DNA of 64,000 nt from Mycobacterium noviomagense (lineage in GTDB: Bacteria; Actinomycetota; Actinomycetes; Mycobacteriales; Mycobacteriaceae): assembly GCF_010731635.1 (NCBI RefSeq), contig NZ_AP022583.1:3348001-3412000 (forward strand), given 5' to 3'. Shown piece by piece: positions 46,950 to 56,029 of the stretch (its first letter is position 1; every line of letters starts with the position of its first letter). The notes under the pieces are model-generated. The model worked only from the letters and a program-made list of their open reading frames with translations, did no database searches and was not told the DNA's origin. The position numbers and the translations under genes are program-made.

Positions 46950-48590
46950 GTGCGAATTCTCGGCGTCAACGCGGTCTTCCACGATCCGGCGGCCGCACTC
47001 GTCGTCGACGGACAGATCGTCGCCGCCGCCGAAGAAGAGCGGTTCTCCCGACGCAAGCACGGCAAGCAGGCGGTGGCGTTCTCCACCTGGGAACTGCCCA
47101 CCGCGGCAGCGAGATGGTGCCTGCAGCAGGGCGGCATCACCGCCGCCGACCTCGACGCCGTCGGCTACTCCTACGATCCGGCGCTCGCCGAGGTACCCGG
47201 CGGGGTGCTCGACGGCCAAGACCGCGACTGGGAGCACCTACGCACCCTGTATGCGCGCCGCGCGCCGCAGTTTTTGTCGACCGCGTTGCCCGGTCTGGAC
47301 CCGGGCATCGTGCGCCATGTCCGCCACCACGTCGCGCACGCGGCGTCGGCTTCGCTGGCCTCTCCGCAGCCGGACAGCGCGGTGCTCGTCGTCGACGGCC
47401 GCGGTGAAGCCACCTCCATGCTGGCTGGCGAATACCGCGACGGCAAACTCGACATCCTTGCCTCCCAACGACTTCCGCATTCGCTGGGGCTGCTGTATGA
47501 AAGCCTGACCGAGCACCTGGGGTTCAAGCGGTCCAGCGACGAATACAAAGTGATGGCGATGGCCTCCTACGGGAAGCCCAGCTACGCCGAGCGTCTGCGC
47601 GAGCTGGTGTATGCCTGCGGCGACGGCACATTTCGCACTGAGCCGGTCGACTGGACCGCGTTCGCCCCGCCACGGGATCCCGCCGAGACCGCGCTGGATT
47701 CCGCGCATGCGGATCTGGCGTGCAGCGTGCAGCGGGTGCTCGAGGAGGTGCTGCTCGAGCTGGTGTCGTGGCTGGCCGGGCGAACCAGCTCCGACACCCT
47801 GTGCCTGGCCGGCGGGGTGGCGCTGAACTGCGTGGCCAACACCGTGCTGTTCGACCGCGGCGGCTTTCATGACGTTTGGGTCCAGCCCGCGTCCGGAGAC
47901 GCCGGTACCGCGCTCGGGGCGGCACTGGCGCTGGCCGCGGAGCACCGCGAGCCGATCGCCCCGATGCCCTCGGCATCGCTGGGCCGCGGCTGGTCCGACG
48001 ACGAGGTGGCCGCGGTGCTGCACGACGCCGACATCTGCTACGAGCGTCCCGCCGATATCGCGGTCGCCGTGGCCGACGCCCTGGCCGACAACCTGCTGGT
48101 CGGATGGTTCCAGGGCCGCTCGGAATTCGGGCCGAGAGCGTTGGGCAACAGGTCGCTCTTGGCCGACCCCGGCGATCCGGCCAACGTCGAGCGGCTAAAC
48201 CGGGTCAAGGGGCGCGAGCAGTTCCGCCCGGTGGCGCCGATGGTGCTGGCCGAGCATGCGTCGCAAATCTTTTCGCGCGGACCGCTGCCCAGCCCTTACA
48301 TGCTTTTCATCCACGACGTGGCCGAAAAGTGGCGGGCGCGTATTCCGGCGGCCACCCACGTCGACGGGACGGCGCGGATCCAAACCGTCGACACCGACCA
48401 GCCGCTGCTGTACCGGATGATCAGCGAGTTCGCCGCCAAAACCGGTGTGCCGGTTGTCGTCAACACCAGCTTCAACACGGCGGGGCGTCCGATAATCGAC
48501 AGCCCGCGAGATGCCCTGGAGTGCTTCGGCAGCGCACCGCTGGACGTCTTGGCCTTGGGCCCGTTCATGATTCGGCGGCACAACCAATGA
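46950..48590 (+). CDS. O-carbamoyltransferase, NodU/CmcH family
   Basis: The product has 546 residues. The N-terminal ASKHA/Kae1-like domain has FHDPAAALVVDGQIVAAAEEERFSRRKHGKQ, HHVAHAASA, and the later CLAGGVALNCVAN and GDAGTALGAAL. The C-terminal YrdC-like/carbamoyl-transfer domain has GRSEFGPRALGNRS and VNTSFNTAGRPI. These enzymes use carbamoyl phosphate and ATP to carbamoylate hydroxyls of sugars or antibiotics. In Pseudomonas LPS a carbamoyltransferase modifies core heptose, which fits the genes here. The GTG is preceded by GAGGGGAG. It starts an eight-gene array. Confidence 0.9.
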   Translation: MRILGVNAVFHDPAAALVVDGQIVAAAEEERFSRRKHGKQAVAFSTWELPTAAARWCLQQGGITAADLDAVGYSYDPALAEVPGGVLDGQDRDWEHLRTLYARRAPQFLSTALPGLDPGIVRHVRHHVAHAASASLASPQPDSAVLVVDGRGEATSMLAGEYRDGKLDILASQRLPHSLGLLYESLTEHLGFKRSSDEYKVMAMASYGKPSYAERLRELVYACGDGTFRTEPVDWTAFAPPRDPAETALDSAHADLACSVQRVLEEVLLELVSWLAGRTSSDTLCLAGGVALNCVANTVLFDRGGFHDVWVQPASGDAGTALGAALALAAEHREPIAPMPSASLGRGWSDDEVAAVLHDADICYERPADIAVAVADALADNLLVGWFQGRSEFGPRALGNRSLLADPGDPANVERLNRVKGREQFRPVAPMVLAEHASQIFSRGPLPSPYMLFIHDVAEKWRARIPAATHVDGTARIQTVDTDQPLLYRMISEFAAKTGVPVVVNTSFNTAGRPIIDSPRDALECFGSAPLDVLALGPFMIRRHNQ

Positions 48591-54698: not shown

Positions 54699-56029
54699 GC
54701 ATCCAGCCCGCCACCGCTGCCGCCAAGCGCATCAAAGTCGGCGTCATCGGCGCCGGCTACGTCGGCTTGACCACCGCGGTTTGCCTGGCCGCCAAGGGAA
54801 TCGACACCGTATGCGTCGACAATGATGCTGCCCGGGTCGACCAACTGCGCCAGGGCGGGTCGGTGATCGACGAACCGGACCTCGACGAGCTGTTGTGCAG
54901 CGGCCTGCGGCGTGGCGACCTTCGCTTCACCTGTCACTACGACGATTTGCGCGATCGCGACGTCACGTTCGTATGCGTTCCGACTCCGACCAACGAGGAC
55001 GGCGGCGCCGACCTGCGCGCGGTCGAGCGCGCGGTCGCCGAACTGGCCGACGTGCTGCGGCCGGGCTCGGTGGTCGCGGTGAAATCGACTGTGCCCGTGG
55101 GCACGTGCCGCCGACTAGCCGAACTGCTCAAGACCCGCGGCGTCCACACCGTCGCCAATCCGGAATTCCTGCGTGAAGGTCGTGCCGTGCATGACTTCTG
55201 CCATCCCGAGCGGGTGGTGGTGGGCGCCGCCGACGACGCGCAGCGCCATGACGCCGCTGCGCGAGTCGCTGAGTTGTACGTAGGGGACACCGACACGGTG
55301 TTGCGGATGAGCCTGGAAAGCGCGGAGCTGGCCAAGTACGCCAGCAACGCTTTTCTGGCGGTCAAACTGTCATTCGTCAACTCGCTGGCCGAGTTGTGCG
55401 GCCGTGTCGGCGCCGACATCGGGGATGTCACTGGCTGCATGGGCGCCGATGAGCGGATCGGCCGCCACTTTCTGGCGCCCGGGCCGGGCTGGGGCGGCTC
55501 GTGCCTGCCGAAGGACACCGCGGCGCTGCTGCACACCGGCCGCGCGCACAATGTTGCGCTGAACGAGGTGGACTCGGCGCGGCGCACCAACGTCGCTCAG
55601 GCCGAGCGCATCGCGACCTCGGTGCGGCGCCTGTTGCAGCGTCCGCTCGGTGAACTGAAGATCACCGCGCTCGGCTTGACGTTCAAGGCCGGCACCAGCG
55701 ACGTCCGCGACTCGCCGGCGGTCGCGATCTGTACCGTGCTGCACCGGGCCGGGGCGCAGGTCACCGCCTACGATCCCCGGCTGGACAGCATCGACAGCGC
55801 CCAGCTGCCGGTCGCCATCGCCCGCGATCCGTACGTCGCTGCAAAAGACGCCGACGCCATCCTGGTGTTGACCGAGTGGCCGGAGTTCAGCGAGTTGGAC
55901 TGGGACTCGATTGCGCGGTGCGCGGCCGGCGGCGCCGTCGTACTCGACACTCGCAACATCCTCGACCGCGACGCGGTGAACACCTCAGCGCTGGTCTGCC
56001 TCGGCAACGGCACCGCCTACGGGTACTAA
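54695..56029 (+). CDS. UDP-glucose 6-dehydrogenase
   Basis: The product has 444 residues. The N-terminal NAD motif is GVIGAGYVGLTTAVCLAAKG. CVPTPTNEDGGADL and KSTVPVGT follow. The catalytic cysteine is C270 in GPGWGGSCLPKDTAAL, and the C-terminal domain has TFKAGTSDVRDSPA. It oxidises UDP-glucose to UDP-glucuronate, giving the substrate for the UXS-like enzyme at 45897 or for glucuronosyl transfer. A GDP-mannose or UDP-ManNAc dehydrogenase is less likely but possible. It ends the locus, 129 bp before pyrH. Confidence 0.88.
   Translation: MSIQPATAAAKRIKVGVIGAGYVGLTTAVCLAAKGIDTVCVDNDAARVDQLRQGGSVIDEPDLDELLCSGLRRGDLRFTCHYDDLRDRDVTFVCVPTPTNEDGGADLRAVERAVAELADVLRPGSVVAVKSTVPVGTCRRLAELLKTRGVHTVANPEFLREGRAVHDFCHPERVVVGAADDAQRHDAAARVAELYVGDTDTVLRMSLESAELAKYASNAFLAVKLSFVNSLAELCGRVGADIGDVTGCMGADERIGRHFLAPGPGWGGSCLPKDTAALLHTGRAHNVALNEVDSARRTNVAQAERIATSVRRLLQRPLGELKITALGLTFKAGTSDVRDSPAVAICTVLHRAGAQVTAYDPRLDSIDSAQLPVAIARDPYVAAKDADAILVLTEWPEFSELDWDSIARCAAGGAVVLDTRNILDRDAVNTSALVCLGNGTAYGY

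Follow-up and report, generated by a model that had tools for sequence, protein, structure and literature searches.

Gene content and distribution of a heptose gene array

The DNA analysed here, called the window in the following, is a stretch of 64,000 nucleotides (nt) from Mycobacterium noviomagense (G000:C1:3348001-3412000 of a one-contig genome of 4.78 Mb) and carries an array of genes predicted to make and transfer an activated heptose. An operon on the + strand at 46950-56029 encodes a carbamoyltransferase (CARB), a fusion of a family 2 glycosyltransferase (GT2) with the phosphatase GmhB, a family 9 glycosyltransferase (GT9a), GmhA, HldE, a short-chain dehydrogenase/reductase (SDR), a second GT9 protein (GT9b) and a nucleotide-sugar dehydrogenase (UGDH). 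A preliminary description, made from the sequence without database searches, had named these genes, and every one of them was confirmed by Pfam and NCBIfam matches and by the junction sequences. Its statement that most genes are joined by ATGA overlaps is borne out at five of the seven junctions (48587, 50071, 51090, 51662 and 54695); SDR and GT9b share 10 nt, and a 29-nt gap separates HldE from SDR. The extent given there was correct for 46950-56029 and incomplete upstream of CARB, where a UDP-xylose synthase (UXS), a divergent GT2 gene (GT2m) and two family 4 glycosyltransferase genes (GT4a, GT4b) had been overlooked. The genes of the array are as follows.

42655..43626, + strand: GT4a, glycosyltransferase (Pfam PF00534 and synteny)
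43617..44882, + strand: GT4b, glycosyltransferase, MshA-like GT4 below the equivalog cut-off (Pfam, NCBIfam)
44879..45826, - strand: GT2m, divergent GT2 glycosyltransferase (Pfam, NCBIfam)
45897..46865, + strand, GTG start: UXS, UDP-glucuronate decarboxylase (UDP-xylose synthase; PDB 2b69)
46950..48590, + strand, GTG start: CARB, sugar O-carbamoyltransferase of the NodU/TobZ family (PF02543 and PF16861, PDB 7xb6)
48587..50074, + strand: GT2-GmhB fusion of 495 amino acids, a GT2 domain with a C-terminal heptose-bisphosphate phosphatase domain (Pfam/NCBIfam)
50071..51093, + strand: GT9a, predicted heptosyltransferase (PF01075, AlphaFold2 model)
51090..51665, + strand: GmhA, sedoheptulose-7-phosphate isomerase (TIGR00441, PDB 1tk9)
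51662..53044, + strand: HldE, bifunctional heptose-7-phosphate kinase and heptose-1-phosphate adenylyltransferase (NF008454, TIGR02198/02199, all below cut-off)
53074..53760, + strand: classical SDR oxidoreductase (PF00106)
53751..54698, + strand, GTG start: GT9b, predicted heptosyltransferase (PF01075, AlphaFold2 model)
54695..56029, + strand: UGDH, nucleotide-sugar dehydrogenase, probably UDP-glucose 6-dehydrogenase (TIGR03026)

The start of UXS was moved from 45825 to 45897 because a SigF-type promoter box falls within the N-terminus first called. For GT4a, no NCBIfam family was found among the matches listed.

Matches to HldE occur in 46/198 genomes of the genus, the genome of M. noviomagense counted, and matches to CARB likewise in 46/198. 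Both are present together in 45 of the 198, in agreement with the earlier view that the set is accessory. One genome (G034) has HldE only, as a paralog of 35% identity, and another (G090) has CARB only; in G099 the HldE match is limited to the C-terminal part. That the G099 array decayed naturally is ruled out, as its locus L099 contains 2957 N. Forty-five loci were fetched and 43 were used, L099 being dropped as masked and L100 as a paralog. The seven-gene core from CARB to GT9b is found in the same order in 42 of these 43 mycobacterial loci, the exception (L070) ending at a contig edge, and this recurrence argues that the array is not a product of chance. All 12 genes, filtered by length, are present in 31/43 loci. 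With tblastn at identities of at least 40%, GT9a, GmhA, HldE, SDR and GT9b were detected in all 43 loci, CARB and the fusion in 42, GT4a, GT4b, UXS and UGDH in 40 and GT2m in 38. UXS is absent in L057, L063 and L070 (contig end) and UGDH in L059, L063 and L095; the xylose branch is retained in most mycobacterial loci, not in all. L063 belongs to a genome of 87% completeness (G052), in which both xylose genes are gone and the rest of the array is retained. In G090 (locus L206), the stretch from inside the GT2-GmhB gene to inside UGDH is gone with no N in its place, GT4b matches span only residues 14-219 and 373-421, and CARB, UXS and GT2m are retained; an assembly error might account for this gap. 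The closest named loci by HldE are those of Mycolicibacter sinensis (76%) and of M. senuensis and M. heraklionensis (75%), which places the host among mycobacteria of the Mycolicibacter type.

Outside the genus, HldE relatives at E ≤ 1e-60 are present in 185/348 genomes and 44/79 genera of the order, and in the phylum 38/396 genomes have a match. Twenty extra-genus loci (L186-L205) all contain GT9a, GmhA, HldE, GT9b and the GmhB part, and 19 contain the GT2 domain; SDR, CARB and GT4b are found in 15 of them, GT4a in 14, UXS in 13 and UGDH in 11. Among 19 Arthrobacter-type loci (L032-L050), GmhA, HldE and SDR are present in 19 and GmhB, GT9a, GT9b and both GT4 genes in 18; CARB, UXS, UGDH and the GT2 domain were found in none of the 19. 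These gene contents mark the heptose core as an actinobacterial system; the parts for carbamoyl, xylose and GT2 are those of a version that mycobacteria share with many relatives within the order. The Arthrobacter-type heptose cluster is also present on a 9.5-kb contig with the label Vibrio cholerae 35D (L051), probably as a contamination.

The predicted ADP-heptose route and its enzymes

Residues that we take to be catalytic or metal-binding in GmhA, HldE, GmhB, UXS, UGDH and the GT9 proteins were compared among relatives from the 43 mycobacterial loci, 20 other loci of the order or phylum and six further loci; only orthologs of suitable length entered the counts, and n varies by gene. In GmhA, H54, E58, Q165 and H173 are kept in 67/67 relatives. 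HldE keeps A253-G254-D255, H341, G343 and H344 in 69/69 and G252 in 68, and the GmhB domain keeps D332 and D334 together with C409, H411, C415 and C417 in 59/60. The Asp of the N-terminal motif is present in 68/68 relatives each of GT9a (D13) and GT9b (D20), the YxxxK pair Y176/K180 of UXS in 51/51 and C270 of UGDH in 49/49. Active-site substitutions in GmhA or HldE, which the preliminary description had named as evidence that would speak against a functional pathway, were not seen in the window proteins at the scored positions.

The four functions needed for ADP-D,D-heptose, namely isomerase, C7 kinase, C7 phosphatase and C1 adenylyltransferase, are thus present with their catalytic residues, and M. 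noviomagense probably possesses an ADP-D,D-heptose route without lipopolysaccharide (LPS). No HldD was found genome-wide at the curated cut-off, the best match reaching 77.4 of 274.6 bits, so that the earlier statement on its absence extends to the whole genome and any heptose made would be ADP-linked and of the D-glycero-beta-D-manno form. A role of the SDR as HldD is unsupported, since no HldD was among the matches listed (25 of 113 NCBIfam families). Neither LpxC (PF03331) nor the 3-deoxy-D-manno-octulosonic acid (Kdo) transferase (PF04413) had a match in the genome, which rules out LPS proper; of the term "LPS-core-like", used in the preliminary description, the part that refers to the enzymes can be kept and the part that refers to LPS cannot. 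Three SIS_2 matches were found in the genome: the array GmhA, a weak one in a 580-amino-acid frame, and a GmhA-like protein of 34% identity (L025:8607-9269) flanked by hypF and hypD in a cluster for hydrogenase maturation. The position of the latter links it to hydrogenase and rules it out as a heptose enzyme.

Nucleotidyltransferases that activate heptose with several nucleoside triphosphates carry a motif (F/L)XXGRSTT, according to passages of PMC11573728. This motif is absent from the C-terminus of the window HldE, which reads VPGYSSS, Y replacing R in 56/69 relatives; therefore, ADP-heptose only is predicted as product. GmhA scores 159.5 bits against TIGR00441 (cut-off 209) and matches PDB 1tk9 at E = 1.8e-42. 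The best solved relative of CARB is PDB 7xb6 (E = 3.3e-95), and that of UXS is UDP-glucuronate decarboxylase 1 (PDB 2b69, E = 1e-101; next family 1.9e-36). UGDH reaches 410 bits against TIGR03026 (cut-off 189.8) and 333.7 bits against TuaD (cut-off 700). Together, UGDH and UXS would supply UDP-xylose.

AlphaFold2 models of GT9a and GT9b, with mean predicted local distance difference test scores of 93.7 and 94.7, have E. coli WaaF as their top fold match (E 1.8e-17 and 1.5e-17), followed by a Veillonella GT9 and WaaC and then by TibC (5e-8 for GT9a, 2e-9 for GT9b). Family GT9 also includes enzymes with non-heptose donors. With a GT9 domain and a WaaF/WaaC-like fold, both proteins are predicted heptosyltransferases. 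TibC, an enzyme that modifies autotransporters with ADP-heptose and was also solved with ADP-D-beta-D-heptose, brings up the question of whether the array heptosylates a protein; the lack of an HldD above cut-off in the genome would suit such a role. However, WaaF, the Veillonella GT9 and WaaC match better than TibC (best E ~1.5e-17), the array contains no surface-protein gene, and six glycosyltransferases, UXS and CARB suggest an oligosaccharide, which makes protein heptosylation highly improbable.

SigF-type promoter boxes and inheritance

Passages of two papers give the SigF consensus as GTTT-N(14-19)-GGGTA (PMC4694148) and GGWWT-N16-17-GGGTAY (PMC7693655). We searched for GTTT-N15-17-GGGTA as the exact SigF-type box. 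The window contains seven such boxes, all at 30.7-46.9 kb, where 0.35 are expected and at most two were found in 60 shuffles; the P value of 1.4e-9 for box density is post hoc, the region having been picked after the boxes were seen. In the 43 mycobacterial loci (832 kb), 157 exact boxes, a total that includes those of flanking SigF-island genes, compare with 0-4 in five dinucleotide shuffles and with three occurrences of the reversed pattern. The spacers 15, 16 and 17 account for 110, 22 and 25 of the 157 boxes, and no further spacer between 8 and 25 occurs more than twice. Across the whole genome of M. noviomagense 58 boxes stand against 19 of the reversed control, so that about one-third of single boxes elsewhere are background. 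The boxes of the array are located as follows.

42620..42644, + strand: box with one mismatch, GTTT-N16-GGGAA, 11 nt before the GT4a ATG
45838..45862, - strand: exact box, 12 nt before the GT2m ATG (45826)
45863..45886, + strand: exact box, 11 nt before the UXS GTG (45897)
46871..46894, + strand: exact box, 56 nt before the CARB GTG

Among the mycobacterial loci, an exact box lies 11-12 nt from the start of GT4a in 35/40 (39 with one mismatch), 13-14 nt from that of GT2m in 38/38, and in 14/36 before UXS with a start codon 11-12 nt further on; other counts of the same boxes gave 34/39 for GT4a, 38/38 for GT2m and 15/40 and 13/38 for UXS. From -90 to +130 nt, no exact box was found in the 43 loci before GT4b, the fusion, GT9a, GmhA, HldE, SDR, GT9b or UGDH; with one mismatch allowed, the same interval yielded one box each for GT9a, GmhA and UGDH and four for SDR. 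In 13 loci from other genera or families (L186-L198), an exact box is located 40-75 nt before CARB in 11/12, seven of them at 54-57 nt. The CARB box looks like an older promoter of the heptose operon, retained in the window and in L056, L057 and L058. Taken together, the boxes suggest that the array would be, at least partly, under SigF control.

Of the 43 fetched stretches, 25 include sigF itself, 23 a topoisomerase IB gene, 21 a gene with a STAS domain, 16 an RsbW-like HATPase gene and 14 a gene for an accA3-like carboxylase. The M. smegmatis island MSMEG_1758-1804 is described as SigF-dependent in a passage of PMC4694148. In M. noviomagense, sigF is located at 2952968, about 0.44 Mb from the array, and the boxes are retained; its product is 84% identical to the SigF of L079, which scores 487.5 bits against NF005514 (cut-off 372). 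With four further exact boxes at 30690-40980, this part of the window resembles a SigF-type stress island at a distance of about 0.44 Mb from sigF. The frequent proximity of sigF, topoisomerase IB and accA3-like genes could mean that the boxes are due to the neighbourhood of the sigF island only and that SigF does not drive transcription of the array, which would also fit the many heptose operons without a box. Against this, the boxes keep constant distances to the array gene starts, the internal genes of the 43 loci lack an exact box, and the CARB box is found again both in loci of other genera or families and in the window, where sigF is far away. We therefore regard a mere neighbourhood effect as very unlikely.

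HldE distances track those of sigF (rho 0.85, from 300 non-independent pairs of 25 loci), topoisomerase (0.77) and accA3 (0.84), which favours mainly vertical descent with losses. Horizontal transfer within mycobacteria as a general rule is unsupported, since HldE follows sigF.

Proposed product, second locus and related systems

We consider it probable that the array as a whole serves a stress-linked heptose glycan or glycolipid, most likely of the envelope, whose genes would be at least partly under SigF. The sequence supports this with the gene set, the conserved catalytic residues, the fold, the co-occurrence and the promoter boxes; from these we infer the enzyme activities, their substrates, the SigF control and the envelope location. 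The general stress factor SigF would, at least partly, start transcription. GT9a and GT9b would transfer heptose, and the GT2 and GT4 enzymes would add xylose, glucuronate or other sugars. CARB may carbamoylate a sugar hydroxyl, by analogy with WapO, whose proposed target in the LPS core of Pseudomonas is heptose II. In the GT2-GmhB fusion, a possible membrane helix near residues 239-257 (hydropathy 1.99) would hold the assembly at the inner membrane. Most likely, the product would be a glycan or glycolipid of the envelope that cells make when stressed or during stationary phase. A glycan would agree with the gene set, which comprises enzymes of the ADP-heptose and UDP-xylose routes, CARB and six glycosyltransferases.

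Several findings weigh against this proposal. HldE, GmhA, GmhB and the GT9 proteins are below the NCBIfam equivalog cut-offs and above those of Pfam. UXS and UGDH are each absent from 3/43 loci, jointly only from L063. The membrane helix of the fusion is proposed from hydropathy, and GT9a, which looks soluble, scores 1.91 by that measure. No domain of a flippase, polymerase, exporter or acceptor was found within the array; of the heptose-containing envelope glycan built by a Gram-negative-type route, as the preliminary description put it, the enzyme set is there and the envelope part is a prediction. Before UXS, 22/36 loci with a resolved GT2m-UXS interval have no box (at least two mismatches), and before CARB 39/42 mycobacterial loci have none, so that the heptose genes in these loci may use another promoter; there, the boxes cover GT4a-GT4b and GT2m and not the heptose genes. 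Seven loci of other families that have the core (L199-L205) contain, over 131 kb, a single box in the 15-17 spacer range. At the second heptose locus described below, HldE2 has no box on its own strand.

The same lack of flippase, polymerase and exporter domains would be expected if the product were a soluble or secreted small molecule, for example an oligosaccharide that protects against stress or a heptoside like septacidin. Novobiocin carbamoyltransferase, TobZ and GdmN, the named relatives of CARB with solved structures, have small molecules as substrates, and manno-heptose enters bacterial natural products such as septacidin, as stated in passages of PMC11573728. However, the array domains include no scaffold enzymes (polyketide synthase, nonribosomal peptide synthetase or nucleoside enzymes). 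The six glycosyltransferases, the LCP-family gene beside the second locus and, weakly, the possible membrane helix likewise speak against a small molecule, which we regard as unlikely.

The second locus is unlinked to the array (L024:6530-11043; G000:C1 ~3064529-3069042) and consists of an LCP-family (LytR_cpsA_psr) gene, a GT9 gene and HldE2. The GT9 gene, the third of the genome (G000:C1 ~3066311-3067417), is divergent from the LCP-family gene and convergent with HldE2 (3067441-3068823), whose product is 37% identical to the array HldE and passes the NCBIfam cut-off for the adenylyltransferase domain (197.1 of 181.5). An exact box (L024:8244-8269) lies 43 nt before an in-frame GTG of the third GT9; any one 150-nt stretch would carry a correctly oriented box by chance with a probability of about one in a thousand. 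No GmhA was found at the second locus, and both loci would therefore share the array GmhA. Going further than a heptose glycan or glycolipid as such, we speculate, tentatively and with considerable doubt, that close to a quarter of mycobacterial species make, under the control of SigF, a carbamoylated polymer of heptose and xylose, which an LCP-family enzyme attaches to the wall during stress; its ADP-heptose precursor would also be visible to the host sensor ALPK1. ALPK1 is named as the receptor of nucleoside diphosphate (NDP)-heptoses in passages of PMC11573728.

The array resembles LPS inner-core heptosylation (GmhA, HldE, GmhB, WaaC/WaaF, WapO) in its four enzymatic steps and its GT9 proteins, and it shares with Pseudomonas core loci a carbamoyltransferase; passages of PMC8005017 assign the carbamoyl group on heptose II of the Pseudomonas core to WapO, a putative carbamoyltransferase. 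In contrast to the LPS core system, the array has a GmhB-GT2 fusion, a UDP-xylose branch and SigF-type boxes, and LpxC, Kdo transferase and HldD were not found. NDP-heptose synthetases of actinobacteria are reportedly the subject of Tang et al. 2022, to go by the title. The array is similar to those in its heptose nucleotidyltransferases and in the related core of Arthrobacter-type and other loci, and differs in that a didomain HldE and a separate GmhA are part of a large glycan array; such loci may have been recognized at the gene level in that work. A GDP-D-alpha-D-heptose pathway of M. tuberculosis (GmhA, HddA, GmhB, HddC) is given in passages of PMC7705670. Both are mycobacterial heptose activations from sedoheptulose-7-phosphate, whereas the M. 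tuberculosis route is of the alpha series on GDP and the array is predicted to be of the beta series on ADP. The mycobacterial lipopolysaccharide mentioned in a passage of PMC7705670 found no support in this genome. The SigF island of M. smegmatis (~MSMEG_1758-1804), as described in passages of PMC4694148 and PMC7693655, has the same box and topoisomerase, RsbW-like and SigF genes nearby. The available text of PMC4694148 mentions neither heptose nor carbamoyl, and the array therefore seems to be outside the M. smegmatis regulon. In Frankia CcI6, a gene annotated as ADP-heptose:LPS heptosyltransferase and a sigma factor with a SigF domain both rise under salt, according to passages of PMC5563000.

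Among the papers listed in searches of CC-licensed PMC literature, none describes in its title, the beginning of its abstract or the passages looked up a heptosylated mycobacterial glycan made via the ADP route or such a locus in mycobacteria. New here are the SigF-type boxes; like them, the UDP-xylose branch, the three upstream glycosyltransferases, the second locus with HldE and GT9 and the wide occurrence of HldE relatives among other actinobacteria had been missed in the preliminary description. An intact heptose set behind SigF-like promoters points to an undescribed stress-linked sugar product. If this is true, general stress in carrier species would trigger a heptose-containing product, part of the gene content beside sigF in carriers would be explained, heptose could serve as a simple chemical marker, and the question would arise whether carrier mycobacteria signal through ALPK1. 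A carbamoylated heptose/xylose polymer would be an undescribed layer of the mycobacterial envelope.

Neighbouring features of the window include the following.

32562..32586, - strand: exact SigF-type box, not part of the glycan set, ahead of a PAS-ANTAR gene (31772-32473, - strand)
40957..40980, + strand: exact SigF-type box GTTT-N15-GGGTA, 11 nt before the in-frame ATG (40991) of the FAD/Rieske gene
40991..42484, + strand: FAD-dependent oxidoreductase with a Rieske domain (Pfam)

Relatives of the FAD/Rieske gene (65-66%) are found at the upstream edge of 2/43 mycobacterial loci (L075, L079), most loci ending there, and it is uncertain whether this gene and its box belong to the glycan system. 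Four exact boxes besides those of the array lie at 30690-40980 of the window, those of the PAS-ANTAR and FAD/Rieske genes included. The array is flanked by an amidase gene (28201-29631) and pyrH (56156-56926), as placed earlier between amiC and pyrH, with about 17 kb of other genes on the amidase side. Located at 6925-8211 and 11140-12087 are a gene for an IS110-type transposase and a shorter open reading frame that shares its N-terminus.

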